From Desulfoscipio gibsoniae DSM 7213 (lineage in GTDB: Bacteria; Bacillota; Desulfotomaculia; Desulfotomaculales; Desulfallaceae), in NCBI RefSeq assembly GCF_000233715.2, contig NC_021184.1, positions 1,116,001-1,180,000 on the forward strand: a stretch of 64,000 bases of DNA, in the 5' to 3' direction. Positions 9,438 to 30,965 of this stretch are shown here, piece by piece. The position numbers and the translations under genes were made by a program. Position 1 is the first letter of the stretch; every line of letters begins with the position of its first letter. A model generated the notes under the pieces. It did no database searches, had not been told where the DNA came from, and saw only the letters and a program-made list of their open reading frames with translations.

Positions 9438-10145
9438 TTAACCACCCCCACCGTTATATTCGGTGTCGTGGTTGCAACTTCCTGTAATACAAAAGTCTAC
9501 TTTTTAAAACCAGAACGCGGGGATGGTTGTAGATGTTACATGGCATTTCCGCACAGTCGCACTGGTAGGCTTAATGCGCTCTTATTGACATTGCTCTTTT
9601 CCGTGAGCAAGGGCAGCTATTTTACTCTAAATAATTCCACAGACCAGGAGGATAGCTTAGCATTACCTTTAAAGGCAAAACCCTTAGTTTTATAGTGAAA
9701 ACACTGCACCAAAAGTGCGGAAGAACCTAAAAAAAATAAGTTTTTTTACTGCCGACGGCCCCCATCCAATATCTGAGACGGGGGCCTGTTTGTGGTGCAG
9801 TTTGACACCGGTGGTGCTGCGCGGCAACAGGTAGTGCCCGGAACCAATGCTTACCGGCGGGAATCATTGGTAAAAAGGCTCCCGGGTAATTTGCAAATTC
9901 TTTTTCGGAATGGCGAAGTGGCCGGATTGCCGGGGTCTGGGGTGGATACCGTTGCCATACTGCACCAGGATGAATTGGTTTATAGGGCATTTATATCGCA
10001 AAGTGCTCTTAATAAATGATAAAAGCAGCAATATGATTAGGTGTAGCGCAACCGACTGAATATTCTTTATTTTGGGCATGGAAATTGCATAGATAAGAGT
10101 GTAAATGAGGGTCGCCTCGTAGACCCAAAGGGGGTTTATTGATTT
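9438..10145. other. 700-base region without a supportable gene
   Basis: Several short frames on both strands (for example 9468-9695 and 9792-10019) lack ribosome sites and family resemblance. There is a GC-rich inverted repeat (GGCCCCC near 9765 and GGGGGCC near 9780). At the right end sits the sigma-54 promoter described separately. Confidence 0.45.
10074..10090 (+). promoter_or_regulatory. sigma-54 (-24/-12) promoter for the bam operon
   Basis: GGGCATGGAAATTGCAT matches the consensus TGGCACG-N4-TTGCW with the invariant GG (10075-10076) and GC (10087-10088) at the required spacing. Transcription should begin near 10100, about 45 bases before the first gene. Sigma-54 activators encoded at 22756, 31038 and 48558 are candidates to act here. 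Confidence 0.75.
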
Positions 10146-10628
10146 ATGAGTAATACGAATAGCATAAAACTACAGCGTAACTGGAAGAATATGATTCTAA
10201 TTTCCCACGGTTTTTTTCATTGCTGGCGTCAGACGGTTGAGGAAACGATAGGACAGCAGGAAGCCAAGAAGTTGGTACAACGTTTTTGGGAACTGGTGGG
10301 TCAGGGAACGGCAGAAGCTTACCTTAAAAAGAATCGGGACCCTGATAGCGTAGAGGATGTAGTGCAGGCTTTTGCCAGGGCAAGTGAAGTTATGGGAGAG
10401 ACTGTACGAGTGGAAAAAGACGGGGAAGCTGTGCTGTTAGTCCATGATGCCTGTCCCTGGATTGACTCTTATCGTGATTACGGATCACCAGGACAATGCC
10501 AACTCGGGTGTGACCGGTGGTTCGGAGCTGCGGTCGAGGGTATTTCTCCCCGGTTACGGGTAGAAACAACGGCCTGTCAGGCTGCGGGAGATCAGACCTG
10601 TGCCAGGCGATTTACCTTCATTTCATAA
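10146..10628 (+). CDS. ATC-hydrolase-like small protein, first gene of the bam operon
   Basis: A 160-residue soluble protein resembling the L-2-amino-thiazoline-4-carboxylate hydrolase-like family (also reminiscent of V4R small-ligand domains): a helical N-terminal half, then HDACPWIDSY, GQCQLGCDRWF and VETTACQAAGDQTCARRF. Four conserved cysteines and the PW and GD pairs recur in a close paralogue at 37397-37894 and in a decayed copy at 48310. Both intact copies sit beside aromatic-catabolism genes, so it may bind or process a pathway intermediate, or sense one. The enzymatic assignment is uncertain. It is the first gene behind the sigma-54 promoter. Confidence 0.6.
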   Translation: MSNTNSIKLQRNWKNMILISHGFFHCWRQTVEETIGQQEAKKLVQRFWELVGQGTAEAYLKKNRDPDSVEDVVQAFARASEVMGETVRVEKDGEAVLLVHDACPWIDSYRDYGSPGQCQLGCDRWFGAAVEGISPRLRVETTACQAAGDQTCARRFTFIS

Positions 10629-10691
10629 AAATTAAATAGGGTTGCATTATTTGATTGGTTTGTAAACTATCTAATTCGAGGAGGATATTGT

Positions 10692-11087
10692 ATGAAATTG
10701 GAAAAAATTGACCACATATGTATAGCGGTTAAGGATGTTAAAAAAGCTGAACAAGTATACTCCAATGCTTTTGATATTAAAGCTGTTGACTACTATGTTG
10801 ATGAAAATGAAAAAATCAATGTAGTCAGGTTCATGATTGGTGAGGTCGGCTTTGAGCTTATGGAATCCACCGATCCCGACGGGGAAGTTGCTAAATTTAT
10901 TGAAAAAAATGGTGAGGGCGTTTTCTTAATATCATTTAAGGTGCCTGACACAGTTGAAAGCATGGATGAATTAAGCAAGAAAGGGCTACCCTTGCTTGAT
11001 AAGAAGCCGCGAAAATGGCGCAACAGCAATTTCACATTCTTACATCCGAAGGGGTTTAACGGGGTGTTGCTGGAACTTATTGATTAA
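10692..11087 (+). CDS. VOC-superfamily protein (glyoxalase/epimerase-like)
   Basis: A 131-residue VOC-fold protein: the start KIDHICIAVKDVKKAEQVY and VGFELMESTDPDG are characteristic of methylmalonyl-CoA epimerase-like members, with the metal ligand His near residue 8 and Glu in FELME. It ends with GVLLELID, giving the last Glu ligand. The fold needs only one metal site made by these His and Glu residues. AGGAGGA stands before the ATG. It lies between the ATC-hydrolase-like gene and bamB; a VOC protein is not a usual Bam component, so its role is open (epimerase of a CoA thioester, or stress protection). Confidence 0.7.
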   Translation: MKLEKIDHICIAVKDVKKAEQVYSNAFDIKAVDYYVDENEKINVVRFMIGEVGFELMESTDPDGEVAKFIEKNGEGVFLISFKVPDTVESMDELSKKGLPLLDKKPRKWRNSNFTFLHPKGFNGVLLELID

Positions 11088-11207: not shown

Positions 11208-13241
11208 ATGAGGTACGCAGAGACAGGATATAATTTAGAAGTTGATTTATCCCGGGGAAATATTGAGCGGGTGGAAACAGACCCGGGATTGACCGAAAAA
11301 TATCTTGGCGGCAATGGTACTGCCGCCAAGCTGATCTGGGACAGGGTATCTCCTGAAACAGATGCCTTTTCTCCCGACAATCTACTCATATTCAGCGCCG
11401 GACTGCTGGTTGGTACGCCTGTTCCCGGTTGCAACCGCACCATGGTCGATACCATTTCTCCCCAGACAAACTTTTTTTCACATTCAATATTTGGAGGCTA
11501 TTTTGGTCCGGAACTGAAACATGCAGGTTACGACAAAATAGTCATTCGCGGTAAAGCCCCCGATTTGGTTTATTTGTGGATCAACAATGACAAAGTGGAA
11601 ATACGTGACGCCTCCCATCTCAAGGGGAAAGGCACTCAGGAAACCGCGGTGCTCATTAGAGAAGAGTTGAAAGATCCCAGGATTCAAGTGGCTGCAATCG
11701 GCCTAGCCGGCGAAAACAGGGTTTTTATGGCCAGCATCGAACACTGCAACGCCGCCGCCGCGCGCGGGGTAGGCGTGATCATGGGGGATAAAAAGTTGAA
11801 GGCCATCGCCGTGCGTGGCACAAAAGATTTTTATGTTGCCAATTCGGAAGAACTTTTCAAGTTATGCCTGAGACACAGTCAGGATATGCAGGCCAGCCCG
11901 TTTGTCGGGGACCTGATGGCCATCGAGTGGAATGACGCTTTTCACCACAACAATTTCTCCTGGGGCAATGTACGTGTGCGGAGAAAGGGTTATTGGACCC
12001 AGGAAATCGAAGATAAATTCAAGGAGTACACCCTGAAGATTCGTGACCGGTTGCAAGGTTGCTATAATTGCCCGAAGAACTGCCATCTTGTGGTTAAGCC
12101 CCCCGGACGGCAAAGATACATGTTAAAATGCTACGGAAAAGCTACCTGGCATATGGCGGCCTTTAAAGAAATAGACTTTACTTTTGACATACTGGCTCTT
12201 AGTCAGGAGTACGGTGTGGACAGCTATGCAACGCCACAAGCTATAGCCTACGCCATTGAGCTTTACGAAGCCGGCATTTTAACCGACAAGGATCTGCCTG
12301 ATTTTCCGGCGGAAAGCGGGGATAGATTTTATTATCTTCTTGAAAAGATTGTCCGGCGGGAAGGAATCGGAGATGTCTTGGCCAACGGTCTTTACCGGGC
12401 GGCCCGCCAGATTGGCAATGGCGCGGAAACATATGAACATAACACAATTAAAAAATTTGAGCAGGTGCCTGTCAAGCTGGGGAAAGTAAATTACCCTTAT
12501 TATCTTATGTATTGCACCAGTGATAAAATGGCGATTAATCAGACCGAGGGATCCTATCCACAAGATCCCATTGCCGACATTGTGGAGAGACAAAAGTTTG
12601 CAGATGAATGGTTATCAGCTCCCGAAAGATTTAGAAGATATTTTATGGGGTGGGAGCCGCGCACCAATCCTTCCGTAGAAGCGTCAATCAATATTTGTGA
12701 CTGGAACGAAACCATGCACTACGTTGATGACGCCACCGGCCTGTGCGCCTTCTGCTCGTCATTCAGAGGCCAGTTTGGCGGTGCCACCGCATATCACATT
12801 TATAATATACCAACTTTCATCAACCTGGCCACAGGGATGAATATTGATGCCGACGACCTGTGGCAAATAGCCAGAAGGAACCGGAACCTGGTCAGGGCCA
12901 TTAACATCAGCAGAGGCTTAAGAAGAGCTGATGAGAAGCCGCCTAAAGACCACTGGAAGAAAAGGGAGCCTGAAAAAGAGCAAGAACTTCTTGATGAGTA
13001 TTATAAATTTAAAGGGTGGACCAATGACGGAATTCCGTCCAAAGCGACACTGGATAAACTGGGCTTGGATTACGTGGCTGAAGAATTCATCAAGAGAGGC
13101 ATCTTGACCGGTAACGAGGATAATTGCTATACGGAAACTCCGTGTTACTCGGAAGTAAATAAAAGAGAAAGTGGGCAATTTTCATCGCTGCGTAAGTCTG
13201 CGGAATTTACTTTAACTGAATACTTACACCAGAATAAATAA
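11208..13241 (+). CDS. bamB: class II benzoyl-CoA reductase, tungsten active-site subunit
   Basis: A 677-residue member of the aldehyde:ferredoxin oxidoreductase family. The N-terminal pterin-binding region (LGGNGTAAKLIW) and the [4Fe-4S] ligands Cys285, Cys288, Cys292 (CYNCPKNC) with a distal Cys513 or Cys516 (GLCAFCSSF) are visible. BamB reduces benzoyl-CoA to cyclohexa-1,5-diene-1-carboxyl-CoA at a tungsten-bis-pterin site without ATP. The family alone would not prove this substrate, but the following seven genes reproduce bamC-I in order, which makes the call strong. AGAGGGG precedes the ATG. It is slightly longer than Geobacter BamB (about 650 residues). Confidence 0.88.
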   Translation: MRYAETGYNLEVDLSRGNIERVETDPGLTEKYLGGNGTAAKLIWDRVSPETDAFSPDNLLIFSAGLLVGTPVPGCNRTMVDTISPQTNFFSHSIFGGYFGPELKHAGYDKIVIRGKAPDLVYLWINNDKVEIRDASHLKGKGTQETAVLIREELKDPRIQVAAIGLAGENRVFMASIEHCNAAAARGVGVIMGDKKLKAIAVRGTKDFYVANSEELFKLCLRHSQDMQASPFVGDLMAIEWNDAFHHNNFSWGNVRVRRKGYWTQEIEDKFKEYTLKIRDRLQGCYNCPKNCHLVVKPPGRQRYMLKCYGKATWHMAAFKEIDFTFDILALSQEYGVDSYATPQAIAYAIELYEAGILTDKDLPDFPAESGDRFYYLLEKIVRREGIGDVLANGLYRAARQIGNGAETYEHNTIKKFEQVPVKLGKVNYPYYLMYCTSDKMAINQTEGSYPQDPIADIVERQKFADEWLSAPERFRRYFMGWEPRTNPSVEASINICDWNETMHYVDDATGLCAFCSSFRGQFGGATAYHIYNIPTFINLATGMNIDADDLWQIARRNRNLVRAINISRGLRRADEKPPKDHWKKREPEKEQELLDEYYKFKGWTNDGIPSKATLDKLGLDYVAEEFIKRGILTGNEDNCYTETPCYSEVNKRESGQFSSLRKSAEFTLTEYLHQNK

Positions 13242-13270
13242 GAGCAATAGTCAGGGGGGTGAAAATCGCG

Positions 13271-13816
13271 ATGGGTAAGTTAGTTAAGAAAATAGTTAAA
13301 ACAATAAAAGTTGATCTGGACAAATGCAACGGCTGTCGCGCTTGTGAGATAGCCTGCGCTGCGTTTCATGCCAAACCGAAGTATAGCAGCTTTAATCCGG
13401 CCCGGGCCCGGATCCGGGTGGTTATTGATGAGCGGAATGATGAGTGGGTTGCAATTCGCGCCACTGATTATACCAAAGCCGGATGTGATGGCAGACGCAC
13501 TTATACAATAAACGGCAAGGAATACAGCGAGTGCAGTTTCTGCGGCACTATCTGCCCGACCAGGGATTTATTTTATGACCCCGATTCCGGCCTGCCTCTT
13601 AAATGCGATTTGTGTGAAGATGAAAAAGAGCCTTTGTGTGTTCAGATATGCAGCCGTAACGCCTTAACTTACGAAGAAAAGGAAGTTGAAGTTGAAGCTG
13701 AAGCTGAAGAACAGGTGAAGCCGGCCGAGATGGAAACAAGCTTGAAATCATTGGTAGATAAATATGGATTAAATAAGCTGCAGAACACCTTGACCCGAAT
13801 TTCAAAGAGGAGCTAA
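13271..13816 (+). CDS. bamC: benzoyl-CoA reductase electron-transfer subunit (ferredoxin-like)
   Basis: A 181-residue Fe-S protein of the DMSO-reductase-ferredoxin type. Cysteine clusters: CNGCRACEIAC near residue 20, CSFCGTIC near 90 and CDLCEDEKEPLCVQIC near 110, enough for about three [4Fe-4S] clusters. The C-terminus is a Glu/Lys-rich segment (VEVEAEAEE) followed by a helix. It should connect BamB to the larger electron-transfer subunits. The ATG at 13271 is preferred, with GGGGGG nine bases upstream; a GTG four codons earlier overlaps that site. It follows bamB by 30 bases. Confidence 0.85.
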   Translation: MGKLVKKIVKTIKVDLDKCNGCRACEIACAAFHAKPKYSSFNPARARIRVVIDERNDEWVAIRATDYTKAGCDGRRTYTINGKEYSECSFCGTICPTRDLFYDPDSGLPLKCDLCEDEKEPLCVQICSRNALTYEEKEVEVEAEAEEQVKPAEMETSLKSLVDKYGLNKLQNTLTRISKRS

Positions 13817-13903
13817 AATCTAATGTGAAATATAAAAAAAAAAGTAGTGTGAAATGTGTGAATAGGTCGAAATGTAAAATAATTTGAAAGAAGAGGAAAA
13901 GTC

Positions 13904-15055
13904 GTGGATACTGAAGCCCCAATTAAAGAGGTAATAGAGGAAATAAAAGAGAGCGGTGGAGACGCCGTCAAATTCTGCTATCAATGCGGAAAATGCGATA
14001 CTGTTTGCCCCTGGAACAAAGTCAGAACTTTCAGTATGCGTAAGCTAATCCGAGAGGCCACATTTGGATTGACCGAGATAGAACATGAAGAGATTTGGCG
14101 TTGTACTACCTGCGGAAAGTGCGCTCAGATATGTCCCAGGGACGTACAGCAGATCCAAAACATGGTAGCCTTGCGCAGGATGGCCACGGGATATGGTGTA
14201 TTTCCCGCCGCTATTAAGCCTGTTCGCGCTGCAAGCGCGGGCCTAACTTCAGATGGCAACCCCTTTGGTGAAGAACGTACCAAAAGGGCGGAATGGGCCA
14301 AGGGGCACTCTGTACAAACCTTCGAAGAAGGAATGGAAATTTTATATTTTCCCGGCTGCTACCCCAGCTATGATGCAAGATTAAAGAAAGTAGCAGTTGC
14401 CACAGCCAAAATCCTTAATAAGGCAGGGGTAGAATTCGGAATACTGGGTGCCGGGGAGAATTGCTGTGGGGAAAGCATTCGCAAGACAGGCAACGAGGAA
14501 TTATTCAAGCAATTAGCCAGGGAAAATATCAAAACTTTTATTGACAACGGGGTTAAGAGAATCCTTGTTTCTTCTCCCCATTGCTACCATACCTTCAGGA
14601 ATGAATATCCTGAATTCAATGTACACTTTGAGATAGTGCATATCTCCCAGTATTTATTCGAGCTGATTAATGAGGGAAGGCTTCAGATCAGCAAGGAGTA
14701 TGCTAAAAAAATTACTTATCATGACCCCTGTTATCTGGGTCGACATAACGGCATATATGACGAACCGCGAGAAGTTTTAAAGAAGATACCTGGTTTAGAG
14801 CTGATCGAGATGCCTGAGTCGCGGGAAAATAGTTTTTGTTGTGGCATGGGCGGAGGCAGGATTTGGGCGGAAACGCCAATGTTTGAAAGATTTGCCAACC
14901 TCAGATTAGAGCAAGCTATTGGGGTTGGGGCTGAGGAGCTAGTTACCGCCTGTCCCTATTGCATCACCAACTTTGAAGATAGCAGGGTAGTCCTGAATTA
15001 TGATGATGTTATCCAGGTTAAGGACATTACGGAGATCCTCCAAGAAGTTATTTAA
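13904..15055 (+). CDS. bamD: HdrD-like heterodisulfide reductase subunit of the Bam complex
   Basis: A 383-residue protein with an N-terminal double [4Fe-4S] ferredoxin domain (CYQCGKCDTVCPW and CTTCGKCAQICPRD) and two C-terminal CCG domains (ENCCGESIRKTG and SFCCGMGGGRIW), the modules that carry the noncubane active-site cluster in HdrB/HdrD. In the Bam complex this subunit is thought to take part in electron bifurcation or confurcation with BamE. It uses a GTG start after GAGGAAAAG. In order with bamC and bamE. Confidence 0.87.
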   Translation: MDTEAPIKEVIEEIKESGGDAVKFCYQCGKCDTVCPWNKVRTFSMRKLIREATFGLTEIEHEEIWRCTTCGKCAQICPRDVQQIQNMVALRRMATGYGVFPAAIKPVRAASAGLTSDGNPFGEERTKRAEWAKGHSVQTFEEGMEILYFPGCYPSYDARLKKVAVATAKILNKAGVEFGILGAGENCCGESIRKTGNEELFKQLARENIKTFIDNGVKRILVSSPHCYHTFRNEYPEFNVHFEIVHISQYLFELINEGRLQISKEYAKKITYHDPCYLGRHNGIYDEPREVLKKIPGLELIEMPESRENSFCCGMGGGRIWAETPMFERFANLRLEQAIGVGAEELVTACPYCITNFEDSRVVLNYDDVIQVKDITEILQEVI

Positions 15056-15370
15056 CGGAAAGGCACCTACCAGGGCGGAAGGAGCTATATCAACTTAATG
15101 GTGGTGTACACACTTCAACTATATCCGATACCAGATCGGGCACATAACACCTTGGACACAATCCAGGTTGAATGTTTGTTATCAACCTGAGATCGAATGC
15201 GCCGTCGGCATACTTATTACTTTGGCATTGACTTCTTTGGTCATGCACGCGGAGGCTGGTTGGGTGTATATTCCACCCGGATCGACTTGGTTGTTCAATA
15301 CATTAAATACGGCTGACCCGGCCAAACCCGGACAGTACGGGTAAATAAAAACTGATGAGGACTGAGACAA
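15056..15370. other. bamD-bamE gap with a 3' gene remnant
   Basis: The 315-base gap contains an open + strand frame without a start that ends at 15344. Its last 50 or so codons encode a hydrophobic helix (VGILITLALTSLVM) and a Pro/Gly-rich end (ADPAKPGQYG), which looks like the tail of a membrane protein I cannot name. No ribosome site or start is visible, so I treat it as a possible fossil. The gap is unusually large for this operon. Confidence 0.3.
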
Positions 15371-18300
15371 ATGGAAAAAGAAGAAAGAATTGAAGGACAG
15401 CTTATAAAAAGTCTTGCAGGCAGTAATTTTGGAGATGTTATGATCGTTGGTGGCGGGATTAGCGGTATTCAAGCCTCACTTGACCTTGCCACTGCCGGTT
15501 TTAAAGTCTACCTGGTAGACAAAGCACCGACCATTGGCGGCCACATGTCCCAGCTAGATAAAACCTTTCCAACCAACGACTGCTCCATGTGCATAGAATC
15601 GCCTAAATTTGTTGAATGTAACAGGCATCCCAATATAGAAATCATGACCTATACAGAAGTTGTCGGTGTCGAAGGGGAAGCAGGAGACTTTAAGGTAACA
15701 TTGATTAAAAAGCCCAGGTATGTAATAGAGAGCAAATGTACAGGTTGTGGTACCTGTGTAGAATATTGCCCGGTTACATACCCTGATCAATATAATCAAG
15801 AGATATCACAGAATAAAGCCATTCATGTATACTTTTCTCAAGCAGTTCCCCTTGTCACTTATATAGATGAAAGCTGCCGTTACCTAAAAGGAAAGACATG
15901 TACTGTATGCCAGGCAGTTTGTAAGAATGACGCCATAGATTTTAGTCAAACGGCGGAGAAGTTAGAAATAGAAGTAGGTGCAATAATTTTATCACCGGGC
16001 TTTGAGCCATTTGACCCCAAACCTAGGGATGACTATGGCTACGGAAAGTATGAGAACGTGGTAACCAGCATGGACTATGAACGGCTATTATGTTCCACCG
16101 GCCCATACGAAGGTGAGATATTGCGTGCCTCCGACAAAAAGCATCCTCATAAAATAGCCTGGATTCAATGCGTCGGATCCAGACAGGTTATACCCGGCGG
16201 CAACAGCTATTGTTCAGCCGTATGCTGCACCTACACGCAAAAGCAGGTAATCTTAACCAAAGACCACGACGCCGCAGCCGAGTGTACCATCTTCCATAAT
16301 GATATACGTGCCTATGGCAAGGACTTCGAGCGCTTCTACCAGAGAGCAAACAACCTTTCCGGCGTTCGATTTATAAGAAGCTATGTATCAATAGGAAGAG
16401 AACTCCCGGAAAGCAAGAACGTAACAATAAGATATTCTACTGTTGAGGATGGAGTAAAAGAAGAAGAATTTGATATGGTAGTATTATCCGTAGGATTGAA
16501 CCCGCCTACTGATGCAAATGGCCTGGCAGATAAGTTCGGCATTGAACTTAATACGCACGGATTCTGTAAAACCAATCCCATTAATCCTATGGAGACTTCA
16601 CGCCCGGGAATTTTTACAAGCGGAGCATTCCAGGGCCCTGTAGATATACCAGAATCGGTTGTGACCGCCAGCGGAGCTGGTTCCCAATGTGGTGAACTTC
16701 TTGACTACCGGCGAGGGAATCTATCCAGAGAAAGGGTGTACCCGCCGGAAAAAGATGTCTCTAGTGAGGAGCCCAGGGTGGGTGTCTATGTGTGTCATTG
16801 TGGGGCTAACATCGGGAGAGTAGTAGATGTCCCTTCCGTAGTTGACTATGCCTTAACCTTACCTAATGTTGTTCACGCTGAAGATAATCTTTTTATATGT
16901 TCTACTGATGCTGCCAAACATATATCAGACTCAATTCGGGAAAAAGGTATCAACCGCGTAGTTGTCGCCGCCTGCACACCCAGGACACATGAGCCGTTAT
17001 TCCGGGACACACTTAGGGAGGCGGGAATTAATCAATATTACTTTGAATTTGCTAATATTAGAGAACATTGCTCTTGGGTCCACTCCAAAGAAAAGGAGGA
17101 GGCCACACAAAAGGCAAAAGAAATAGTCCGGATGTCGGTAGCCCGAACTGCACTCTTGGAACCATTACAGGAATTTGATCTTTCCGTTAACAAAACGGCT
17201 TTAGTGGTCGGAGGGGGCCTGGCGGGCATGATCAGTGCTCTATCCATAGCTCACCAGGGACATGAAGTTCACCTGGTGGAAAAGAATACGGACCTGGGTG
17301 GGATGGCCAAAAAAGTTTACTATACCCTGGAAGGGCTCAATGTTCAAGCTTATTTGCATGATGTTATACGCAAAGTTTATCAACATCCATTAATACATGT
17401 ATATACTGATGCCGCCATTACGGAGGCTAGCGGTTATGTGGGTAATTTCATGACCAGGGTAAAATCAGAAAGAGGGGTTGCAGAGATAAAACATGGTGCA
17501 GCCGTCATCGCTACTGGTGCCCAAGTATATAAACCCACCGAATACCTTTATGGTCAAGATGACAGGGTTATGACCCACCTGGAATTAGAGGAGCAAATAG
17601 CCAAAGGAAACGAAAAAATAATTAACGCAGAAAGTCTGGTGATGATCCAATGCGTAGGCTGCAGAAACGAAGACAGAAATTACTGCAGCCGGGTATGTTG
17701 CAGCGAATCTATCAAGAACGCCTTAAAACTTAAAGAACTAAACCCCGAGATGGATATCTACATTCTCTTTAGAGATATCAGAACGTATGGTTTCAAAGAA
17801 GATTATTATCGTGAAGCGGCAAGTAAAGAGGTAAGGTTCATCCGCTATGAGCCTGATGATAAACCACAGGTAGAAGCTGGTGAATCCGATGAAGGCCGGC
17901 CAGTTTTAAAGGTTACCGTAACCGATCCTATTTTAGGTAAAAAGCTTGAAATAGATGCCGATGCACTTGCCTTAGCTGCCGCCGTTATTCCCTCCACAGG
18001 AAGTCAAGAAATAGCTGGATTATTTAAAGTATCTTTGAGTCCGGATGGTTTCTTCCAAGAAGCCCATGTCAAATTAAGGCCCGTAGACTTCGCTGCGGAA
18101 GGAGCTTATTTGTGCGGGATAGCTCACTATCCCAAGCTTATATCAGAAACGATTAGCCAGGCTTATGGAGCAGCCGGTCGGGTCTTAACTCTTCTCTCAC
18201 ATGATGCAGTCACGGCCTCCGGCTCTGTTTGCGAAGTAAATGAGGACAACTGCATTTCATGTGGAGCATGTATCTCAGCCTGCACTTACGGCGCCATAGA

Positions 18301-18472
18301 ATTTCGTCAGACACAAAAGGGCAGAAAAGCTGTCGTTAATCCCGTGCTCTGTAAAGGAGATGGACTCTGCAATACAAAGTGTCCAACAGGGGCTATTTCA
18401 CTAAAACACTATACGCATGAACAAGTCTTTCGTCAAATTGACGCGTCAGTTCCAAAGGAAAATATGATATAA
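15371..18472 (+). CDS. bamE: HdrA-like flavin/Fe-S subunit of the Bam complex
   Basis: A 1033-residue protein made of two HdrA-like halves. The N-terminal half has an FAD site (VGGGISGIQASLDLA), the HdrA cysteine signature (TNDCSMCIESPKF) and Fe-S motifs (CTGCGTCVEYCPV and following). A middle HdrA segment (VYVCHCGANIG, FICSTDAAKHI, AACTPRTHEP) leads to a second FAD site (VVGGGLAGMISALS). The C-terminus carries two more [4Fe-4S] motifs (CISCGACISACTYGAI, CNTKCPTGAI). HdrA is the flavin-based electron-bifurcating subunit in methanogens; here it probably couples a low-potential reduction of the ring to NAD or another acceptor. The frame is uninterrupted. Confidence 0.88.
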   Translation: MEKEERIEGQLIKSLAGSNFGDVMIVGGGISGIQASLDLATAGFKVYLVDKAPTIGGHMSQLDKTFPTNDCSMCIESPKFVECNRHPNIEIMTYTEVVGVEGEAGDFKVTLIKKPRYVIESKCTGCGTCVEYCPVTYPDQYNQEISQNKAIHVYFSQAVPLVTYIDESCRYLKGKTCTVCQAVCKNDAIDFSQTAEKLEIEVGAIILSPGFEPFDPKPRDDYGYGKYENVVTSMDYERLLCSTGPYEGEILRASDKKHPHKIAWIQCVGSRQVIPGGNSYCSAVCCTYTQKQVILTKDHDAAAECTIFHNDIRAYGKDFERFYQRANNLSGVRFIRSYVSIGRELPESKNVTIRYSTVEDGVKEEEFDMVVLSVGLNPPTDANGLADKFGIELNTHGFCKTNPINPMETSRPGIFTSGAFQGPVDIPESVVTASGAGSQCGELLDYRRGNLSRERVYPPEKDVSSEEPRVGVYVCHCGANIGRVVDVPSVVDYALTLPNVVHAEDNLFICSTDAAKHISDSIREKGINRVVVAACTPRTHEPLFRDTLREAGINQYYFEFANIREHCSWVHSKEKEEATQKAKEIVRMSVARTALLEPLQEFDLSVNKTALVVGGGLAGMISALSIAHQGHEVHLVEKNTDLGGMAKKVYYTLEGLNVQAYLHDVIRKVYQHPLIHVYTDAAITEASGYVGNFMTRVKSERGVAEIKHGAAVIATGAQVYKPTEYLYGQDDRVMTHLELEEQIAKGNEKIINAESLVMIQCVGCRNEDRNYCSRVCCSESIKNALKLKELNPEMDIYILFRDIRTYGFKEDYYREAASKEVRFIRYEPDDKPQVEAGESDEGRPVLKVTVTDPILGKKLEIDADALALAAAVIPSTGSQEIAGLFKVSLSPDGFFQEAHVKLRPVDFAAEGAYLCGIAHYPKLISETISQAYGAAGRVLTLLSHDAVTASGSVCEVNEDNCISCGACISACTYGAIEFRQTQKGRKAVVNPVLCKGDGLCNTKCPTGAISLKHYTHEQVFRQIDASVPKENMI

Positions 18473-18500
18473 CAACTTGATGCGGTTGTTGGAGATGGTT

Positions 18501-18540
18501 AGAAAGGGGACACACCTTCTTAGCTAGGAATGTTCCCAAC
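18501..18540 (+). repeat. REP-like palindromic element, copy 1
   Basis: The stretch begins AGAAAGGGGACACACCT and ends GGAATGTTCCCAAC, so its ends can pair as GGGGACA with TGTTCCC (one mismatch). A longer copy with the same ends lies after bamF. Such elements resemble those associated with REP-type (Y1) transposases; none is encoded in this window. Confidence 0.55.
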
Positions 18541-18615
18541 TTATAAATATCCCCAATTTAAACGAACAAAGAGAGATTACAAAGAGAGATTACTAATTAA
18601 AGAGGTGAGATAAAA

Positions 18616-19383
18616 GTGGGTACAGGAACAGAGTTCAAGCCAAGAATTCTAGGTTTTTTATGTAATTGGTGAGCATACGGCGCTGCTGATTTGGCTGGAG
18701 TTTCCAGACAACAATATGTAACTTATGCTAAGCTTATACGCGTGATGTGTACTGGCAGAGTCGAGATAGAATTTATACTCAGAGCTTTATCAAACGGAAC
18801 GGATGGGGTAGTTATCGGTGGTTGTCATCTTGGAGACTGCCATTATAATACTCATGGAAACTACCACGCACTAAACATGGTGTTTCTATGTAAAAAAATA
18901 ATGGAACACATGGGTCTAAACCCCGAAAGATTAAGGATGGAATTTATGTCTGCCGGTGAAGGAATCCGTTTCACCGAAGTTATGAATGACTTTGGTAAAA
19001 CGGTGAAGGAATTAGGACCACTAGGCCAAAGTGAAGGAATAGATGAAACTGTATTAAAGTTAAAACTTAAAGCAATTACAAAGCTGGCCCCCTACATTAG
19101 ACTTATACTTAATGAAAGGCTGAGAGTACATTTTAATACAGTAGAAGAATATAAAAAATTCTACTCTGGTGAACAGTTAGAAAAAATATTTCGTGAATTA
19201 ATAGCAGATAAATTTGCAATAAGTCAAATTATGTTACTTCTGCGGGAAAGACCCCTTTCAACTGAAGAAATAACTAAGATTTTAGGACTAACCCCATCTG
19301 AAATATCAAGGCACCTTAATACTTCAGCAAGGCAAGGATTAGTCAAGTACGAAGATGGCCAGAAACGCTTTGCTCTTGTTTAG
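18616..19383 (+). CDS. bamF: MvhD-like selenoprotein of the Bam complex with C-terminal winged helix
   Basis: A 255-residue protein read from GTG 18616 (after AGAGGTGAG) through the in-frame TGA at 18670-18672, taken as selenocysteine 19. The motif CNWU replaces the CNWC-type [2Fe-2S] ligand set of MvhD, the subunit linking hydrogenase or other donors to HdrA. Geobacter BamF is likewise an MvhD-like selenoprotein. Further motifs GGCHLGDCHY and FMSAGEGIRF are typical of MvhD. Residues after about 160 form an added domain with a winged-helix look (LSTEEITKILGLTPSEISRHLN). A caller that treats TGA as stop would begin at 18691 and lose the active site. REP-like repeats flank the gene on both sides. 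Confidence 0.85.
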
Positions 19384-19444
19384 AGGAAAGGGGACACACC
19401 TCAGCTTTGGGGTCAAGGCTTTGGGGTCGAGGAATGTCCCCAAC
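19384..19444 (+). repeat. REP-like palindromic element, copy 2
   Basis: It begins AGGAAAGGGGACACACCT directly after the bamF stop codon and ends GGAATGTCCCCAAC, with terminal GGGGACA/TGTCCCC pairing perfectly. The inner part has a short tandem repeat (CTTTGGGGTC twice). Same ends as the element before bamF. Confidence 0.6.
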
Positions 19445-19498
19445 GTATGAAAAGGCAGACAGTGGCTCAGGGGAAAGAAGGAGGTCAGGTAAGAGACT

Positions 19499-19951
19499 AT
19501 GGATAACGATAGAATTGAACAAATATTAAATGAACATCAGGGCCAAGCCGGTTCACTGATTAAAGTATTAATGGAAATTCAAGAACAAAATCATTGGCTG
19601 CCTAGAGAAGTATTAGTGGAGGTCAGTGAAAAATTAGAGGTGCCTTTAAGCCGGGTATTGAGAATAGCTACCTTTTATAAGACATTCTCTTTGACACCTA
19701 AAGGACGTCATGAAATTCACGTTTGTACGGGTACTGCCTGTAAAGTTCGTGGTGCGCAGCGGGTTCTCGACGAGGTGCAAGAACTGACTGGAATTAAACC
19801 CGGCGAAACGGACTCGGATTTAAAGTTTAGCCTGGAGACCGTTAACTGCCAGGGCTGCTGTTCTTTAGGTCCAATGATCGAAGTCGATGGAAAGACTCAC
19901 AGTAAGATATCGCCTGCCGAGATAGCAGACGCGTTAAAAAAATATGAGTGA
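19499..19951 (+). CDS. bamG: NuoE-like [2Fe-2S] subunit of the Bam complex
   Basis: A 150-residue thioredoxin-like ferredoxin. The four ligands of the [2Fe-2S] cluster are visible: CTGTACKVRG supplies two and CQGCCSLGP the other two, with the family spacing. NuoE-type proteins pair with NuoF to form the NAD(H)-reactive module. Its length is normal. The next gene begins nine bases after the stop. Confidence 0.88.
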   Translation: MDNDRIEQILNEHQGQAGSLIKVLMEIQEQNHWLPREVLVEVSEKLEVPLSRVLRIATFYKTFSLTPKGRHEIHVCTGTACKVRGAQRVLDEVQELTGIKPGETDSDLKFSLETVNCQGCCSLGPMIEVDGKTHSKISPAEIADALKKYE

Positions 19952-19960
19952 GGGAGCATT

Positions 19961-21655
19961 ATGGCACATATAAATTCAGCGGCTGAATTGGAAGAACTTA
20001 GGAAGGGTATCTTATCAAAAATAGAACCCGATAAGCCTTGTATTGCCATATGCGCGGGAATCGCCTGCCTCGGCCTCGGCAACGACAGGGTTATCAGCGC
20101 TTTTGAAGAAGAGATCAGGAAACAATCCTTAGAAACTAAAGTTGATATTAGAGCAACCGGCTGCCATGGCTTTTGTGAAAAAGGACCTATTGTTGTCATC
20201 TATCCTGAAGAAATCTGCTATTTGGAAGTAACACCGGAGGATGTGCCGGAGATTATATCTCAGACTGTAGTTGGAAAGAAAGTGATTGATCGACTAATTT
20301 ACACCGATCCCAACACTGGTGCAAAAGCAGTGCATCAATTTGAAATACCTTTTTACAAGAATCAATCGCGGCTACTTATTGGCAATAACCCTAAAATTAA
20401 TCCCAAAAGCATAGAAGATTATCTGGCAATTGGCGGTTATTCTGCGTTAGCCAAAGCGCTTTTTGCGATGAACCCCGAGCAAGTCCTTGAAGAAATAAAG
20501 AAAGCCAACTTGCGCGGCCGGGGCGGCGGTGGATTCCCTGCCGGTTCGAAGTGGGAGACTACCCGAAACGCGCCCGGAGAAGAAAAGTATGTAATTGTCA
20601 ATGCTCACGAGGGTGAGCCCGGGGCGTTTATGGATCGAGCCCTCTTCACTGGGAACCCGCATCTCGTGTTGGAAGGCTTAATCATCGGAGCCTATACCAT
20701 CGGTTCACATCAGGGATTTATCTATACCCGGCATGATACCCCTCAGCTAAGAGAAAATATTGATATTGCCCTATCTGAGGCAAAGGAGTACGGACTCTTA
20801 GGTGAAAATATCCTTGGCTCCGGCTTCAACTTTAATGTTGAGGTGCATCTAGATGTAGGGATATTCGTTTCCGGCGAGTCCAGTGCATTAATGAGGTCAA
20901 TAGAAGGGAAGTCACCGGAACCAAGACCCAAATATATTCGTACTTCGGTTAGTGGTATTTGGAATAAGCCCAGTAACTTAAACAACGTGGAGACCTGGGC
21001 TAACGTACCTCAGATAATTAATAATGGCTCAAAATGGTATAGCAGTATCGGGACAGAGCGGAGCAAGGGAACAAAACTAATATCTTTATCAGGTAATATA
21101 TGTAATACAGGAGTCGTAGAAGTTCCCATGGGTACCTCGCTTAAAGAGATTATCTATAACTTTGGTGGTGGAATACCAAACGGAAAGAAACTTAAAGCAG
21201 TTCACTTTGGAGGACCTATGGGAGGTTCTATTCCCGAGAGTCTCATCGATAGTCCACTTGACTTCGATGTGCTTTCAAAACTGGGCACTTCACTGGGCGC
21301 AGGCGACATGCTGGTATTGGATGAAGATAACTGTATGGTTGAAACCGCCAGGTACTTCCTTGATTTCCTCAGTGGTGAATCGTGCGGCAAATGTGTACCA
21401 TGCCGTGAAGGTATCAGGCAGATGCTTAAAACCCTCACTGATATCACCGATGGAAAAGGAAAAGAAGGGGACATTGAGCTTTTGGAGGAAATAGCCGGGG
21501 TAGTTGGTGAAGCAGCCCTTTGTTCGTTGGGCAGGAGTGTCCCTAAACCATTATTGAGCATGTTAAAGTACTTTAGAGATGAGTATGAGGCGCACATCAA
21601 GGAGAAACGGTGTCCGGCTCTTTTCTGCAAGGAGCTGAAGAAGGGAGAACTATAA
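19961..21655 (+). CDS. bamH: NuoF-like NADH-binding flavoprotein of the Bam complex
   Basis: A 564-residue protein: an N-terminal thioredoxin-like [2Fe-2S] domain (CAGIACLGLG and CHGFCEKGP, residues 1-110), the FMN/NAD(H)-binding domain (LRGRGGGGFPAGSKW, EGEPGAFMDR), an SLBB domain, and the [4Fe-4S] motif SCGKCVPCREG near residue 480. This is the fusion form of NuoF/HoxF seen in NAD-linked bifurcating enzymes. In the Bam complex it would exchange electrons with NAD(H). ATG after GAGGGAG; coupled to bamG and bamI. Confidence 0.9.
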   Translation: MAHINSAAELEELRKGILSKIEPDKPCIAICAGIACLGLGNDRVISAFEEEIRKQSLETKVDIRATGCHGFCEKGPIVVIYPEEICYLEVTPEDVPEIISQTVVGKKVIDRLIYTDPNTGAKAVHQFEIPFYKNQSRLLIGNNPKINPKSIEDYLAIGGYSALAKALFAMNPEQVLEEIKKANLRGRGGGGFPAGSKWETTRNAPGEEKYVIVNAHEGEPGAFMDRALFTGNPHLVLEGLIIGAYTIGSHQGFIYTRHDTPQLRENIDIALSEAKEYGLLGENILGSGFNFNVEVHLDVGIFVSGESSALMRSIEGKSPEPRPKYIRTSVSGIWNKPSNLNNVETWANVPQIINNGSKWYSSIGTERSKGTKLISLSGNICNTGVVEVPMGTSLKEIIYNFGGGIPNGKKLKAVHFGGPMGGSIPESLIDSPLDFDVLSKLGTSLGAGDMLVLDEDNCMVETARYFLDFLSGESCGKCVPCREGIRQMLKTLTDITDGKGKEGDIELLEEIAGVVGEAALCSLGRSVPKPLLSMLKYFRDEYEAHIKEKRCPALFCKELKKGEL

Positions 21656-21676
21656 CCTAAAGGGAGCAAAGAAAAA

Positions 21677-22291
21677 ATGAGTGAAATTATTTTACAAATT
21701 GACGGAAGGGAAGTTGCAGCAGAGAGCGGGATGACCGTTTTAGAGGCAGCACAAAGGGCGGGAATATCGATTCCGACACTTTGTCACCATGAGATGTTAG
21801 AACCTTATGGTGCTTGCCGCCTTTGCACAGTAGAAGCAGAAGTTCGCGGTCGAACCAAGCTTGTTGCCTCCTGCCTTTACCCGGTGGAAAAAGATTTAAT
21901 CGTAAGAACCAGGTCTGAGAAGGTAGACAAAATTCGCAAAATGATTTTAGAATTGTTACTGGCCCATGCTCCTGAAGCCAGGGGATTGCAGGGTTTGGCA
22001 CAAGAGTATGGTGCAGACAAAAACCGTTTTGAAAAAGAACCTTCATTTTGCATTCATTGTGGTTTATGTGTAAGATACTGTGCTGAGGTTAAAAAGAAGC
22101 ATGCTATTGAATTTGTTGATAAAGGAACAAAACGGGAGATAAGCTTTATTCCAGAGATAGCCGCTAAGGAGTGCTGGAATTGTAAAGAATGTTTTCCGCT
22201 TTGTCCTACAGAGGCGTTACAAGCAGCTTTCGTTTTAACAAAAGAGCTTGCGTTTTTCTCTCTTTCTTCGGAACCCGTGCCGGCGGAATAG
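21677..22291 (+). CDS. bamI: NuoG-like Fe-S subunit of the Bam complex
   Basis: A 204-residue protein equal to the N-terminal Fe-S part of NuoG: a plant-type [2Fe-2S] domain (CHHEMLEPYGACRLC, then SCLYPV) and two [4Fe-4S] motifs (CIHCGLCVRYC and CWNCKECFPLCPTEA). It lacks the large molybdopterin-like domain of true NuoG, as expected for BamI. It is the last gene of the run; a strong terminator follows 130 bases later. Confidence 0.87.
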   Translation: MSEIILQIDGREVAAESGMTVLEAAQRAGISIPTLCHHEMLEPYGACRLCTVEAEVRGRTKLVASCLYPVEKDLIVRTRSEKVDKIRKMILELLLAHAPEARGLQGLAQEYGADKNRFEKEPSFCIHCGLCVRYCAEVKKKHAIEFVDKGTKREISFIPEIAAKECWNCKECFPLCPTEALQAAFVLTKELAFFSLSSEPVPAE

Positions 22292-22459: not shown

Positions 22460-22755
22460 CTTTGCCTTGTTATATTTTTTATGGGTACTTTTAACACAGG
22501 CCATAGGAGTACTTAATTAATGGACCCCGGTGATCGATTGCATACGACCTTCGGGTTCAATAAACGCAGTTAACTAACGGAGGTAAAAGGGTTTGGCCAA
22601 GAAGTGCAGTATAAGTATCTTAAGATGACATTAATGGCAAGTGCAGTTAAGGAAGTATTTTTTGGACTCTAATTCCTGGCAAGTCATGCTTGATCGACAA
22701 CAAAAAGTGTTTTACGTTTTATAGAGAGTTGTATTCAATTTGGAGGGGTGGATTT

Positions 22756-24240
22756 ATGGTGGATTCCAACATAAAAAAGACACTAACAAGCACTCCGGGA
22801 GTTAAGGATGCTTTGGGGAACCTGTTTCGGTTTCTGCCTAAGGAACAAGATCAGCGCATGAAATGGTTGGCCAGCATACTTAACGCTATCCACGATAGTG
22901 TGGTGGTTGTGGATTTGGACTCCACTATTATCTACGTAAATCCGGCATACATGAGAAGCTTGGGTGTTTCCGAGGAGAAGGTATTGGGGCGGAAGCTCAA
23001 GGACTTCGAGCCCACCTCCAGGATTCTGGATGTTCTAAGTTCAGGAAAACCTATTGTAGATGATCCATCCAGGATTACTTCTCTGGGAATAGATATTATG
23101 GCTAATATTACTCCGGTGTTTGAAGGTAAAAATCTTATAGGAGCGGTGGCGGTATTCAGAGATATTTCAGAGATTGTTGCTTTAAAGGAAAAACTTGAGG
23201 AAACTACGACGGAAATGCTAAAGACCAGGGAACAGACATCTCGCTACTATACAGAGCTTCAGGAACTCAGAACCAGACTGATGGATATTGATAACCTGAT
23301 CTGTGAGAGTGCGGAAATGCGGCGAGTGATTGAAATGGTACTCCGCGTTGGTCGGGTGGATTCTACAGTTCTGGTGACCGGAGAGTCCGGTGTGGGTAAG
23401 GAAGTAGTTGCCAAACTCCTCCACAAAGTTAGTAAGCGAAAAGACGGACCCTTTGTGATAATTAATTGCGGCGCTGTCCCGGAAAACCTATTGGAGTCGG
23501 AACTGTTTGGCTATGAAAAGGGTTCCTTTACCGGGGCCAGTAAGGAAGGTAAACTGGGCCTATTGGAGTTAGCCAACAAAGGGACATTGTTTTTGGATGA
23601 AATTGGTGAATTGCCACTGGGGTTGCAGGTTAAACTCCTGCGGGTCCTACAGGATAAAAAGTTCACTCGGTTGGGAGGAATCAAATCCATAGAGGTGGAT
23701 GTGCGCTTTATTGCCGCCACCAACCGGGATTTGAAAAAGATGGTCACCCAGAAGATTTTCCGGGAAGATTTGTTTTACCGCCTCAATGTTGTTCCCATTC
23801 ATATACCGCCCCTTCATGAACGCAGGGCGGACATAGTGCCGCTGGCCGGGTTTTTTTTAGAAAAATACAACACGAAATACGGAATGAATAAAAGGCTGTT
23901 GCCTGAAGTACTGCGTTGGTTAAATAATTTTCCCTGGCCCGGTAATGTACGGGAACTTGAAAATGTGGTGGAGAGATTGGTGGTTTCTTCACTTAATGAT
24001 ACCATTACTTTGAAGGAAGTGTATCTGGCTGGATGTAGTGACCGGCCTACTTTCCAAAGCGAAGAAGTGTTTGGCCTGAATGTCATGGATTTGCACCAGG
24101 CTAAAGACATGCTGGAAAAGGAATTCATAACAAAAGCCCTTAATTTAGCGGGCTCAGCCAGAAAGGCGGCCCAACTTCTAGGGATTAACCATTCAACAGT
24201 AGTTCGTAAAGCCAGAAAGTACGGAATTAATCTAGCGTAG
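22756..24240 (+). CDS. sigma-54-dependent activator with PAS sensor
   Basis: A 494-residue NtrC-family activator. Order: a PAS domain (about residues 30-140; VVVDLDSTIIYVNPAYMRS), a coiled-coil linker (KLEETTTEMLKTREQ), the AAA+ domain with Walker A GESGVGKE, the sigma-54 contact loop GSFTGA (a Ser variant of the usual GAFTGA), Walker B TLFLDEIGEL and the arginine finger region, and a Fis-type HTH (SARKAAQLLGINHSTVVRKA). It should open sigma-54 promoters in response to a small molecule bound by PAS. It stands immediately behind the bam operon, so bam is the likeliest target. Start at 22756 chosen for GGAGGGG upstream. Confidence 0.88.
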   Translation: MVDSNIKKTLTSTPGVKDALGNLFRFLPKEQDQRMKWLASILNAIHDSVVVVDLDSTIIYVNPAYMRSLGVSEEKVLGRKLKDFEPTSRILDVLSSGKPIVDDPSRITSLGIDIMANITPVFEGKNLIGAVAVFRDISEIVALKEKLEETTTEMLKTREQTSRYYTELQELRTRLMDIDNLICESAEMRRVIEMVLRVGRVDSTVLVTGESGVGKEVVAKLLHKVSKRKDGPFVIINCGAVPENLLESELFGYEKGSFTGASKEGKLGLLELANKGTLFLDEIGELPLGLQVKLLRVLQDKKFTRLGGIKSIEVDVRFIAATNRDLKKMVTQKIFREDLFYRLNVVPIHIPPLHERRADIVPLAGFFLEKYNTKYGMNKRLLPEVLRWLNNFPWPGNVRELENVVERLVVSSLNDTITLKEVYLAGCSDRPTFQSEEVFGLNVMDLHQAKDMLEKEFITKALNLAGSARKAAQLLGINHSTVVRKARKYGINLA

Positions 24241-25097: not shown

Positions 25098-25979
25098 TTA
25101 AATAGTCAACTTGCCCAGTACCGGAGAGTATACCCCCGCTTGCAGCAGTAGATAGAAAATGAAGAAGTGTCCAATTAGGTCGGCTAAAGTAATTAATCCC
25201 ACCACGGCTGTTCCGCCGGAAGCACCCACGAACAGAGATAAAAACAGAGTGAACAGAAAACCGATGCAGACCACAAAGCCAAAAAACATCTTGGAATAAG
25301 GACCTTTAATTAATAGCAATAGAGATTCACGGGCGGCAGCAGTAGCGTTTACTACGCTGAGTAGGTAAGTAGCGACGCCGATTAAGTTAATTAGAATCAG
25401 AGTAATTGCCAGTGTTTCCAGGTTAATTAATGAATTAACAGTGACCCATCCGCCGTGTACGAGGAAGAAAAATACTGTTGTTCCACCCAATATGGAGTAA
25501 AGTATAAATAAAAAGGGTATCATTGGTGTATTCCATAATGGAATGGCAGGTGAATCATTCATTACAAAACCATCGGTAACGGCCACTAATACTGCACTGA
25601 CCAGGGCCAAAATTCTGAAAAATTCCCATGCTGCGCTTCCCGTGGGCAAAAGTAAATAAATTGCGGCAATGGCAGTAAAAATTCCCATTACCCATACGGT
25701 TCGAGCAATCCAGGAAGTGCTTGGCCGGGTTAAGGCTCGCCAGAATCTTTCCGGTCGTCCCAGGTGAATCAAAAGTGCGCCGCCTTTGCCGATATTTTCG
25801 ATCAAAATTCCGGCCAGGGCCAGTAACGGGGTGCCTAAAAATACAGAAAGGATGAATATCCCCGCGCCAATTTTGCCGAAAAAGAAGGCCAGGGCAATCC
25901 ACTGAGTCCAAACAGTTTGTTTGCGAAACCCCATTACAAACTCGTTACCCTCTACTATGGGCACGGATTGTGCTGTCAT
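25098..25979 (-). CDS. NrfD/PsrC-like membrane anchor subunit
   Basis: A 293-residue integral membrane protein with about eight hydrophobic helices, of the NrfD/PsrC family that anchors molybdopterin oxidoreductases and exchanges electrons with quinones. The segment HLGRPERFWRAL in the first loop is a family hallmark. AGGAGGG precedes the ATG. It is the third gene of a catalytic - Fe-S - anchor set read leftwards. Confidence 0.82.
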   Translation of the reverse strand: MTAQSVPIVEGNEFVMGFRKQTVWTQWIALAFFFGKIGAGIFILSVFLGTPLLALAGILIENIGKGGALLIHLGRPERFWRALTRPSTSWIARTVWVMGIFTAIAAIYLLLPTGSAAWEFFRILALVSAVLVAVTDGFVMNDSPAIPLWNTPMIPFLFILYSILGGTTVFFFLVHGGWVTVNSLINLETLAITLILINLIGVATYLLSVVNATAAARESLLLLIKGPYSKMFFGFVVCIGFLFTLFLSLFVGASGGTAVVGLITLADLIGHFFIFYLLLQAGVYSPVLGKLTI

Positions 25980-25991
25980 AGTTAAACCCTC

Positions 25992-26603: not shown

Positions 26604-26622
26604 ACATATTTTCACTCCTTTT

Positions 26623-29127: not shown

Positions 29128-29186
29128 ATAAACCCTCCTTTTTTTAGAATGAATTAAATTATTTGAATTATCTAAAAAATTATTAT

Positions 29187-29222
29187 ACAAAACTCCAAAT
29201 AACTTTGATTTTGGAGTTTTGT
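29187..29222 (-). terminator. hairpin between the amidohydrolase and oxidoreductase genes
   Basis: A 13-bp stem (ACAAAACTCCAAA / TTTGGAGTTTTGT) with a 10-base loop, followed on the minus strand by an AT-rich stretch with several T. It lies after the amidohydrolase stop and before the oxidoreductase start, so it may be a partial terminator that lowers downstream expression. Confidence 0.6.
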
Positions 29223-29296
29223 AAAACGGTTGATACTATGTGTACAGGAAATTCTCCACTTTAAGGTAATACAATGTAGCAATGTTAAGAAAAATG

Positions 29297-30649: not shown

Positions 30650-30772
30650 TTTCCAAAACCTCCTTAAATAATAATCAGCTCATAAACAAAAAAGTTAGGA
30701 AAATTTAAATTAATGAACTCTCTGTGATATCAACACCTCCATAAGGATTTAATTGTTTTACAAATATAACAA

Positions 30773-30787: not shown

Positions 30788-30965
30788 GAATAGTGAATCC
30801 AATCGCCAACCACGAGTGAAATGACTAAAACCATCTTTAATCAGTCATTATTAAAGGCTTAGCGGACAAAATAAATTCAATAATAGTTTTGTTCTTGTAG
30901 TATGCGGTACAAAAGTTTACCGTTAATTGTTTAAAAAAAATACTATTTTGCTATCAAATCATAAG

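Follow-up and report, generated by a model that had tools for sequence, protein, structure and literature searches.

The closest described counterparts of the proteins studied here are the V4R/XylR_N sensors of DmpR, MopR, PoxR, PheR, and EtpR, which are sigma-54 activators that respond to aromatics. In the fused regulator DmpR, binding of the effector shifts a linker, which results in ATPase assembly (PMC7264223), and the phenol sensors bind zinc through three cysteines and one glutamate, according to PMC10715001. The kinship of V4R with the PF14196, HNOB, and MetOD1 families has already been stated in PMC5847659, which describes MetOD1 as a domain of archaeal response regulators and, citing Tashima 2006, gives thiazoline-ring hydrolysis (L-2-amino-thiazoline-4-carboxylate hydrolase) as the PF14196 activity.

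A literature search, with most subscription journals outside its coverage, found no publication on the clade of PF14196 proteins described below, and the V4R and benzoyl-CoA sensor literature that it returned concerned fused sensors. To our knowledge, substrate sensing for the benzoyl-CoA pathway is poorly known in strict anaerobes, above all in those Gram-positive species that reduce sulfate or live as syntrophs. Here, we describe two genes at the head of a benzoyl-CoA reductase operon in Desulfoscipio gibsoniae DSM 7213, the first of which encodes a candidate sensor domain detached from its activator. The window that we analyzed is a stretch of 64,000 nucleotides (NC_021184.1, positions 1,116,001 to 1,180,000, forward strand) of a genome that consists of a single contig of 4,855,529 bp.

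Results

Organization of the Operon Head

The first-pass annotation had placed two genes that are not recognized Bam components at the start of the bam operon, and both were found to be real and first in the operon. The gene here called ATC1 (10146 to 10628, plus strand) encodes a protein of 160 amino acids that passed the PF14196 ATC_hydrolase profile with 89.1 bits against a cut-off of 28.1. It is followed after 63 bp by a gene for a VOC protein of 131 amino acids (10692 to 11087, plus strand), which passed the Glyoxalase_4/VOC profile with 55.8 bits against a cut-off of 27. Each gene is preceded by a purine-rich stretch resembling a ribosome-binding site, and 120 bp separate the VOC gene from bamB. 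The open reading frame at 11208 matched BamB of G. metallireducens (4z3w) over nearly its full length with 783 bits, as compared to 254 bits for the next best solved aldehyde oxidoreductase, and is by sequence comparison nearest to the catalytic subunit of class II benzoyl-CoA reductase, that is, bamB. Seven more genes follow in bam order, and the class II benzoyl-CoA reductase operon bamB-bamC-bamD-bamE-bamF-bamG-bamH-bamI extends from 11208 to 22291 on the plus strand; we take the seven to be bamC to bamI from their order and domain content, after the Geobacter operon.

Six bamB copies were found in the D. gibsoniae genome, the number also given in PMC4148979. A second bam cluster in this genome (L043, G000:C1:2012000-2031000) encodes BamE to BamI proteins that are 96% to 99% identical to those of the window operon, and its BamB is just 62% identical to the window BamB, so the electron-transfer subunits are alike and the catalytic subunits differ. 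The window BamB (11208 to 13241, 677 amino acids) belongs to a lineage with relatives of 89% to 90% identity in 2 other genomes, G002 and G426 (L138, L139).

A sigma-54-type promoter match with a GG-N10-GC core is located at about 10074 to 10089 on the plus strand and ends 56 nucleotides 5' of the ATC1 start codon. This was the single mismatch-free match to the tight core GGCAYGN4TTGCW in the whole window. When the window was divided into 1274 overlapping stretches of 300 bp, 3 contained a site with at most 1 mismatch and fixed GG and GC, as many as the ATC1 site by itself yields. Looser matching gave chance-level results, with 17 sites found versus 17.65 expected.

We also fetched 26 other bamB loci (from 21 other genomes, and 5 in D. 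gibsoniae), which are part of those listed by the BamB searches and include some contigs that end close upstream. An ATC gene was located directly upstream of bamB in none of them, and a VOC gene in 1. D. gibsoniae was thus the one genome in which a bam operon was seen to begin with an ATC gene, and on these counts we rejected both ATC1 and the VOC protein as Bam subunits.

A Clade Seen in Our Sample Only in Genomes with bamB

At E ≤ 0.001, PF14196 matched no gene of the genome other than the intact ATC1 and ATC2. ATC2 (37397 to 37894, plus strand) lies directly 3' of 2-oxoacid oxidoreductase (POR/Pad-like) genes at 32961 to 37203 and encodes a protein with 55% identity to ATC1 over 154 amino acids, which bears out the paralogue noted in the first-pass annotation. 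The dead copy that it had noted at 48310 was likewise confirmed. It is what is left of the C-terminal part of a third ATC gene (about 48310 to 48493, plus strand), broken by a frameshift and containing a stop, with 66% identity over 50 amino acids (E 1e-12) and 57% over 28 amino acids (E 6e-5), starting about 25 bp 3' of an OYE gene (46308 to 48284).

The PF14196 family was present in 61 of the 398 phylum genomes, and ATC1-like proteins in 5 of these 398 and in 4 of the 113 class genomes. The 2 samples amount to about 496 genomes, with an overlap of 15 as taken from the listings. Nine genes in 8 of these approximately 496 genomes of the phylum, representing 7 families, form what we call the ATC clade, one of the genes being truncated. 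In a phylogeny with 22 other PF14196 members, which carries a long-branch warning, the nine genes grouped together with 100/99 support, and the stem leading to them measured 2.81 changes per site. The protein from G140 (L011), a genome of a different family, was 81% identical to ATC1 over 153 residues.

BamB was identified at E ≤ 1e-130 in at least 10 of the 398 genomes, where the best 2 candidates per genome were scored, and in 27 of the 113, giving 35 distinct genomes. The gene was present in all 8 genomes with the clade (P 4e-9 among approximately 496 genomes with our own excluded, and with genomes taken as independent), and the clade was absent from 27 genomes with bamB. The earlier suggestion that the family follows the aromatic-catabolism modules holds, as a link to aromatic degraders, for the ATC1 clade; it fails for PF14196 overall, which is scattered. 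A scan of a second genome collection with the single ATC sequence gave one locus, and a plasmid search gave no match.

Some copies have been lost, which counts against a sensor role. In addition to the remnant in the window, the clade member in G462 (L137:3284-3661) ends after about 100 matching residues and is, from its sequence, probably dead, and G226 contains a 35-residue ATC match with a stop (L010), which HyuB/HyuA-like genes (L036) neighbor at a distance of about 3.7 kb.

Predicted Fold and Residue Pattern of ATC1

An AlphaFold2 model of ATC1 built from 3 sequences had a pLDDT of 78.9 and a pTM of 0.75, with the other four models at 54 to 72. The first Foldseek match was DmpR with phenol (6iy8), and the 30 matches under E 1e-3 were mostly PoxR, MopR, and Bet3/TRAPP chains. 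The VIA Z scores of the model were 12.3 for Bet3, 11.7 for MopR, 11.4 for PoxR, 10.7 for DmpR, 10.4 for BcsD, and 8.4 for H-NOX, MopR and Bet3 being tied within 1. The predicted model thus places ATC1 in the V4R/Bet3 fold. This fold also has functions other than sensing, as BcsD and H-NOX among the matches illustrate, which again weighs against the sensor reading.

With hhalign, a 31-sequence PF14196 profile aligned with V4R over 142 columns (probability 88%, E 3e-6 calculated for a single comparison) and paired C122, C144, and C152 of ATC1 with V4R cysteines. The V4R side drew its 15 domains from genomes with bamB, D. gibsoniae supplying 7, and included 3 rows (L084, L087, L096) that were not of activator length. 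The V4R profile PF02830 was matched by none of the 7 clade members scanned at E ≤ 0.1, and XylR_N by 1 of the 7, at E 0.011 only. All 7 matched PF14196, and all 7 matched MetOD1 at E ≤ 0.1 (best 1.4e-5). Sequence searches with ATC1 or the 7-row alignment against solved structures returned chance-level matches only. MetOD1 (PF18546), the output domain of methanogen response regulators, shares the fold family and cysteines, according to PMC5847659. The ATC clade differs from it in being bacterial, in lacking a receiver domain, and in scoring higher with PF14196.

Within PF14196, the clade is a monophyletic outlier with a residue pattern of its own, which is new. It keeps the family cysteines C103, C122, and C152, which are invariant in the 22 non-clade members compared, as well as G148, and adds C118 and C144; C103, C118, C122, and C152 were present in 8 of 8 members and C144 in 7 of 8. 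A column that was Asp in 22 of 22 non-clade members had Phe in all 8 members of the clade, the 22 being those compared from 26 non-clade loci (L061 and L076 were dropped as short, and L055 and L078 were left out). W105 was invariant in the clade (8 of 8) and aligned with a V4R Trp beside a gap.

ATC1 resembles the DmpR, MopR, PoxR, PheR, and EtpR sensors in its predicted fold, in three aligned cysteines, and in its association with sigma-54 activators and aromatic catabolism. The zinc site of V4R differs in ATC1, which has Thr141 at the position of the glutamate; on the alignment, C118 or C103 might replace it. In the phenol sensors a histidine and a tryptophan anchor the phenol hydroxyl, and no clear equivalent of this histidine was seen in ATC1. 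Furthermore, ATC1 is a stand-alone protein without AAA+ or DNA-binding part, and the activators, which are of the PAS type, are encoded by separate genes. Seven ordinary V4R matches were also found in D. gibsoniae, six of which lie in frames of at least 625 amino acids, long enough for fused regulators.

The same residues bear on the possibility that ATC1 and ATC2 are hydrolases. Their substrate would be a dead-end product or an intermediate, either a heterocycle or a thioester, and they would work together with a dihydropyrimidinase-like amidohydrolase, whose gene is found in the modules of the window, L033, L136, and L171. PF14196 is the best profile for ATC1, its named activity is the hydrolysis of a thiazoline ring (PMC5847659), and the three family cysteines are retained. 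However, the change from Asp to Phe argues against plain ATC hydrolysis, even with D123 (7 of 8 clade members) close to the column, where gap placement is uncertain. The clade is also set apart by its long branch and by the gain of two cysteines, and it is the activators that recur beside its genes, whereas the partner enzymes (BamB, POR, OYE, Mo oxidoreductase) vary by locus. On balance we consider hydrolysis unlikely.

Genes Located Beside the ATC Clade

The window contains 3 genes for PAS-sigma-54 activators, here called A, B, and C. Activator A (22690 to 24240, plus strand) lies 3' of the bam operon, activator B (31038 to 32471, minus strand) lies before the 2-oxoacid oxidoreductase genes, and activator C (48558 to 50285, minus strand) is convergent with the ATC remnant across a gap of 64 bp. 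The activator gene nearest to ATC1 is 12.1 kb away.

Outside the window, a same-strand PAS-sigma-54 activator gene was located 26 to 250 bp from the ATC gene in L033, L034, and L035, and the order in L011 was ATC, OYE, a gene for a 145-amino-acid protein, and an activator gene 2.9 kb off. An activator on the same strand at 26 bp to 2.9 kb was thus present in 4 of the 5 non-window loci with flanks of several kb on both sides (L011, L033, L034, L035); in the fifth, L136, the distance was 6.8 kb. The chance of finding an activator within 3 kb at 4 of 5 loci is about 1e-5 from genome densities, with the cut-off chosen post hoc and the density of one genome assumed. Two further contigs, L032 (with 5 kb upstream) and L137, are short, and no activator was found in their available parts. 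In L032, a Mo oxidoreductase gene is directly 3' of the ATC gene, and in L136 genes for PsrC, PsrB, and a Mo oxidoreductase are one gene away, with activator B at 6.8 kb. On the contig of L034, activator B follows at about 14 kb, and at about 20 kb there are genes for POR, dihydropyrimidinase, and Mo oxidoreductase (L171). In G226, the ATC gene and bamB were on one contig, 12 kb apart.

In flanks of at most 1.5 kb, an enzyme of the modules was present at 5 of 7 non-window clade genes versus 1 of 26 other PF14196 loci (Fisher 0.0005), and an activator at 3 of 7 versus 1 of 26 (Fisher 0.023), a comparison biased towards the clade because the flank queries came from the window and one OYE gene of L011. 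The neighborhood survey called for earlier thus places the clade beside Pad-like oxidoreductase modules, OYE-type reductases, or PAS-sigma-54 activators; the arrangement of ATC directly upstream of bamB did not recur at any of the 26 other loci.

With up to 1 mismatch allowed, a sigma-54 site was found upstream of ATC1 and of the ATC genes in L011 and L032. No good site was found in 4 of the 7 ATC upstream regions (ATC2, L033, L034, L035), nor at L136. In L034, a perfect site precedes the OYE gene, 23 nucleotides from its called start.

These neighborhoods are also relevant to the suggestion that ATC1 and ATC2 are metal or iron-sulfur accessory proteins that serve the neighboring oxidoreductases in assembly, insertion, or electron transfer. 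Four of the five cysteines of ATC1 described above occur in all 8 clade members and the fifth in 7, and the neighbors are Mo/W/FeS or flavin enzymes. The OYE enzymes, however, are not Mo/W enzymes, and no ATC gene adjoins bamB at the 26 other loci fetched, among them the same-genome cluster with nearly identical BamE to BamI. We regard an accessory role as distinctly unlikely.

Several other features of these modules were noted. Proteins of 142 to 145 amino acids in L011 (9787-10221) and L034 (8908-9333) are 59% identical, have no Pfam match, and are encoded next to genes for OYE-type enzymes, ATC proteins, and activators. The flanks of the ATC remnant, with OYE 5' and activator C 3', resemble the company of the ATC genes in L011 and L034, and the OYE protein of L011 is only 33% identical to that of the window. 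The region at 25098 to 37203 contains genes for a PsrABC-like Mo oxidoreductase, a dihydropyrimidinase-like protein, and the 2-oxoacid oxidoreductase, and much of this set recurs in L033 and L171, together with Xdh-like genes. The set is perhaps padBCD/padEFGHI-like; the equivalog cut-offs for phenylglyoxylate dehydrogenase were not reached.

A second set of HyuA/HyuB, CoA ligase, MaoC, and OYE genes is located at 40038 to 48284. An exact 472-bp duplication (45609 to 46080 and 63136 to 63607, 17.5 kb apart) covers nearly all of a MaoC-like gene, and its copies diverge soon past the repeat, which is, judged by its sequence, a recent duplication or gene conversion. The row of genes at 50794 to 62839 includes what we take to be the large and small subunits of a B12 mutase, a CoA ligase, HyuA/HyuB, and a three-subunit Mo hydroxylase, and a gene for a 213-amino-acid protein with no Pfam match. 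It presumably resembles the iaa gene cluster known from Aromatoleum, which is for anaerobic indoleacetate; a search that excluded most subscription journals found no literature on anaerobic indoleacetate.

Close Orthologues of Activator B in Genomes with the Clade

A phylogeny of 20 activators united window activator B and the activators near ATC genes in L136, L011, and L033 in one clade with 100/98 support. The ATC-adjacent activators of L034 and L035 fell outside it, as did A and C of the window. Orthologues of activator B with at least 60% identity were identified in 5 of approximately 496 genomes including its own, the other four being G426 (79%), G140 (65%), G294 (63%), and G105 (62%). 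All 5 genomes contain the ATC clade, with the activator on the same contig as the ATC gene (P 1e-8 with our own genome excluded). The 60% line was chosen after the gap from 62% to 57% was visible, and the next matches, at 57%, were in G165 and G042, which have no clade gene. Three genomes with a clade gene (G004, G226, G462) had no orthologue at this level among the candidates scored, which were at most the best 14 per genome in the 113 genomes and the best 4 in the 398, so that misses are possible.

Because Pad-like modules share contigs with activator B and ATC in the window, L033, L136, and L171, the association may be one at the level of the module. The L011 locus, in which the neighbor is an OYE enzyme, favors a link to the activator over one to the module, on a contig that is short. 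The activators that neighbor ATC genes carry PAS sensor domains of their own.

The VOC Protein

The VOC protein found its best family in the methylmalonyl-CoA epimerases (TIGR03081), which it matched over the full length with 93.4 bits, below the cut-off of 114.95. It keeps H8 and acidic residues at what we take to be the other ligand regions. At one metal-ligand position, however, the HH or QH pair of its relatives is FL. The low score and the loss of the presumed ligand histidine, where the window protein has Leu, led us to reject a true methylmalonyl-CoA epimerase. An epimerase-like gene with 41% identity is located elsewhere in the genome (G000:C1:1997799).

A search of 21 genomes identified a VOC relative in 11, of which that in G010 was 72% identical and located among NAD synthase and HcyBio genes, and the others were 24% to 44% identical. 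The BamB search, rather than the VOC search, led to G002, where a VOC gene encoding an 87% identical protein lies directly before genes for BamB (90% identical) and BamC, followed by a CoA ligase gene and an activator gene. This activator was 54% identical to activator A over 220 amino acids and was its nearest relative in the activator tree. The FL pair was present in the VOC proteins of the window, G002, and G010, and HH or QH in 10 of 11 other aligned relatives; the eleventh, from G300 (31% identical), also had FL. No ATC gene was found by tblastn on the 6.3-kb contig of G002, and the stretch before its VOC gene contains, as read by eye, a sigma-54-like site that deviates at the -12 GC. The VOC-BamB pair therefore occurs both with ATC (window) and without it (G002). 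In G426, no VOC gene precedes the gene for the 89% identical BamB. We infer, weakly and from sequence, that the VOC protein is probably an acyl-CoA-binding relative of the epimerases with an altered metal site that serves this BamB lineage.

ATC1 and the VOC protein are thus two unrelated stories, and the question arises whether both are recent, nearly neutral passengers of duplication, with no role in ring reduction, in a genome rich in duplicated aromatic modules. The ATC-VOC-bamB arrangement is found in one genome only, G002 has the VOC-BamB pair alone, the third ATC copy in the window is dead, and the copy in G462 is truncated. However, ATC1 and the VOC gene are both intact, ATC1 keeps the clade-invariant residues and follows an exact-core sigma-54 site, its counterpart in G140 is highly similar across families, and the VOC-BamB pair has been retained in G002. 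Carriage of this kind appears very unlikely to us.

Discussion

Of the three functions that the first-pass annotation had considered for ATC1, namely binding of an aromatic-CoA, repair of a dead-end product, and sensing, the last is best supported, by the predicted fold, the partner genes, and the sigma-54 promoters at some loci. The role of ATC1 is probably regulatory, and the protein would not be an additional component of the enzyme that breaks the ring. More specifically, the predicted fold and the gene neighborhoods suggest that ATC1 and ATC2 may be detached V4R-like receptors that work in trans with sigma-54 activators, a tentative reading to which we give somewhat less than an even chance.

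We propose that ATC1 and ATC2 would bind an aromatic acid or an aryl-CoA, or respond to a metal-linked redox signal. The ligand state would be passed, by a putative contact in trans, to a PAS-type sigma-54 activator of the same module, which could be B for ATC2 and A or B for ATC1. The activator would then open the sigma-54 promoters of the catabolic operons. With ATC1 as the first gene behind the bam promoter, the proposed direction of control would include a feedback in which the sensor and the genes for ring reduction rise together.

In its most elaborate form, the proposal describes a two-piece aromatic sensor of Gram-positive anaerobes. A V4R-type receptor with a five-cysteine site rebuilt for a metal or FeS cluster would act on PAS-type sigma-54 activators in trans. 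It would thereby link redox signals, and those of aromatic acids or aryl-CoAs, to modules for class II benzoyl-CoA reductase and to modules of the phenylglyoxylate type, and the ATC1 gene would head the operon that its product controls. We hold this full version to be doubtful.

For the study of class II benzoyl-CoA reductases, the analysis removes two candidate extra subunits. For the PF14196 family, it suggests that this clade is probably misnamed by the automatic label "ATC hydrolase". The stand-alone V4R-like clade, found within our sample only in genomes with bamB and often beside particular sigma-54 activators, provides named candidate genes for aromatic sensing in these anaerobes.
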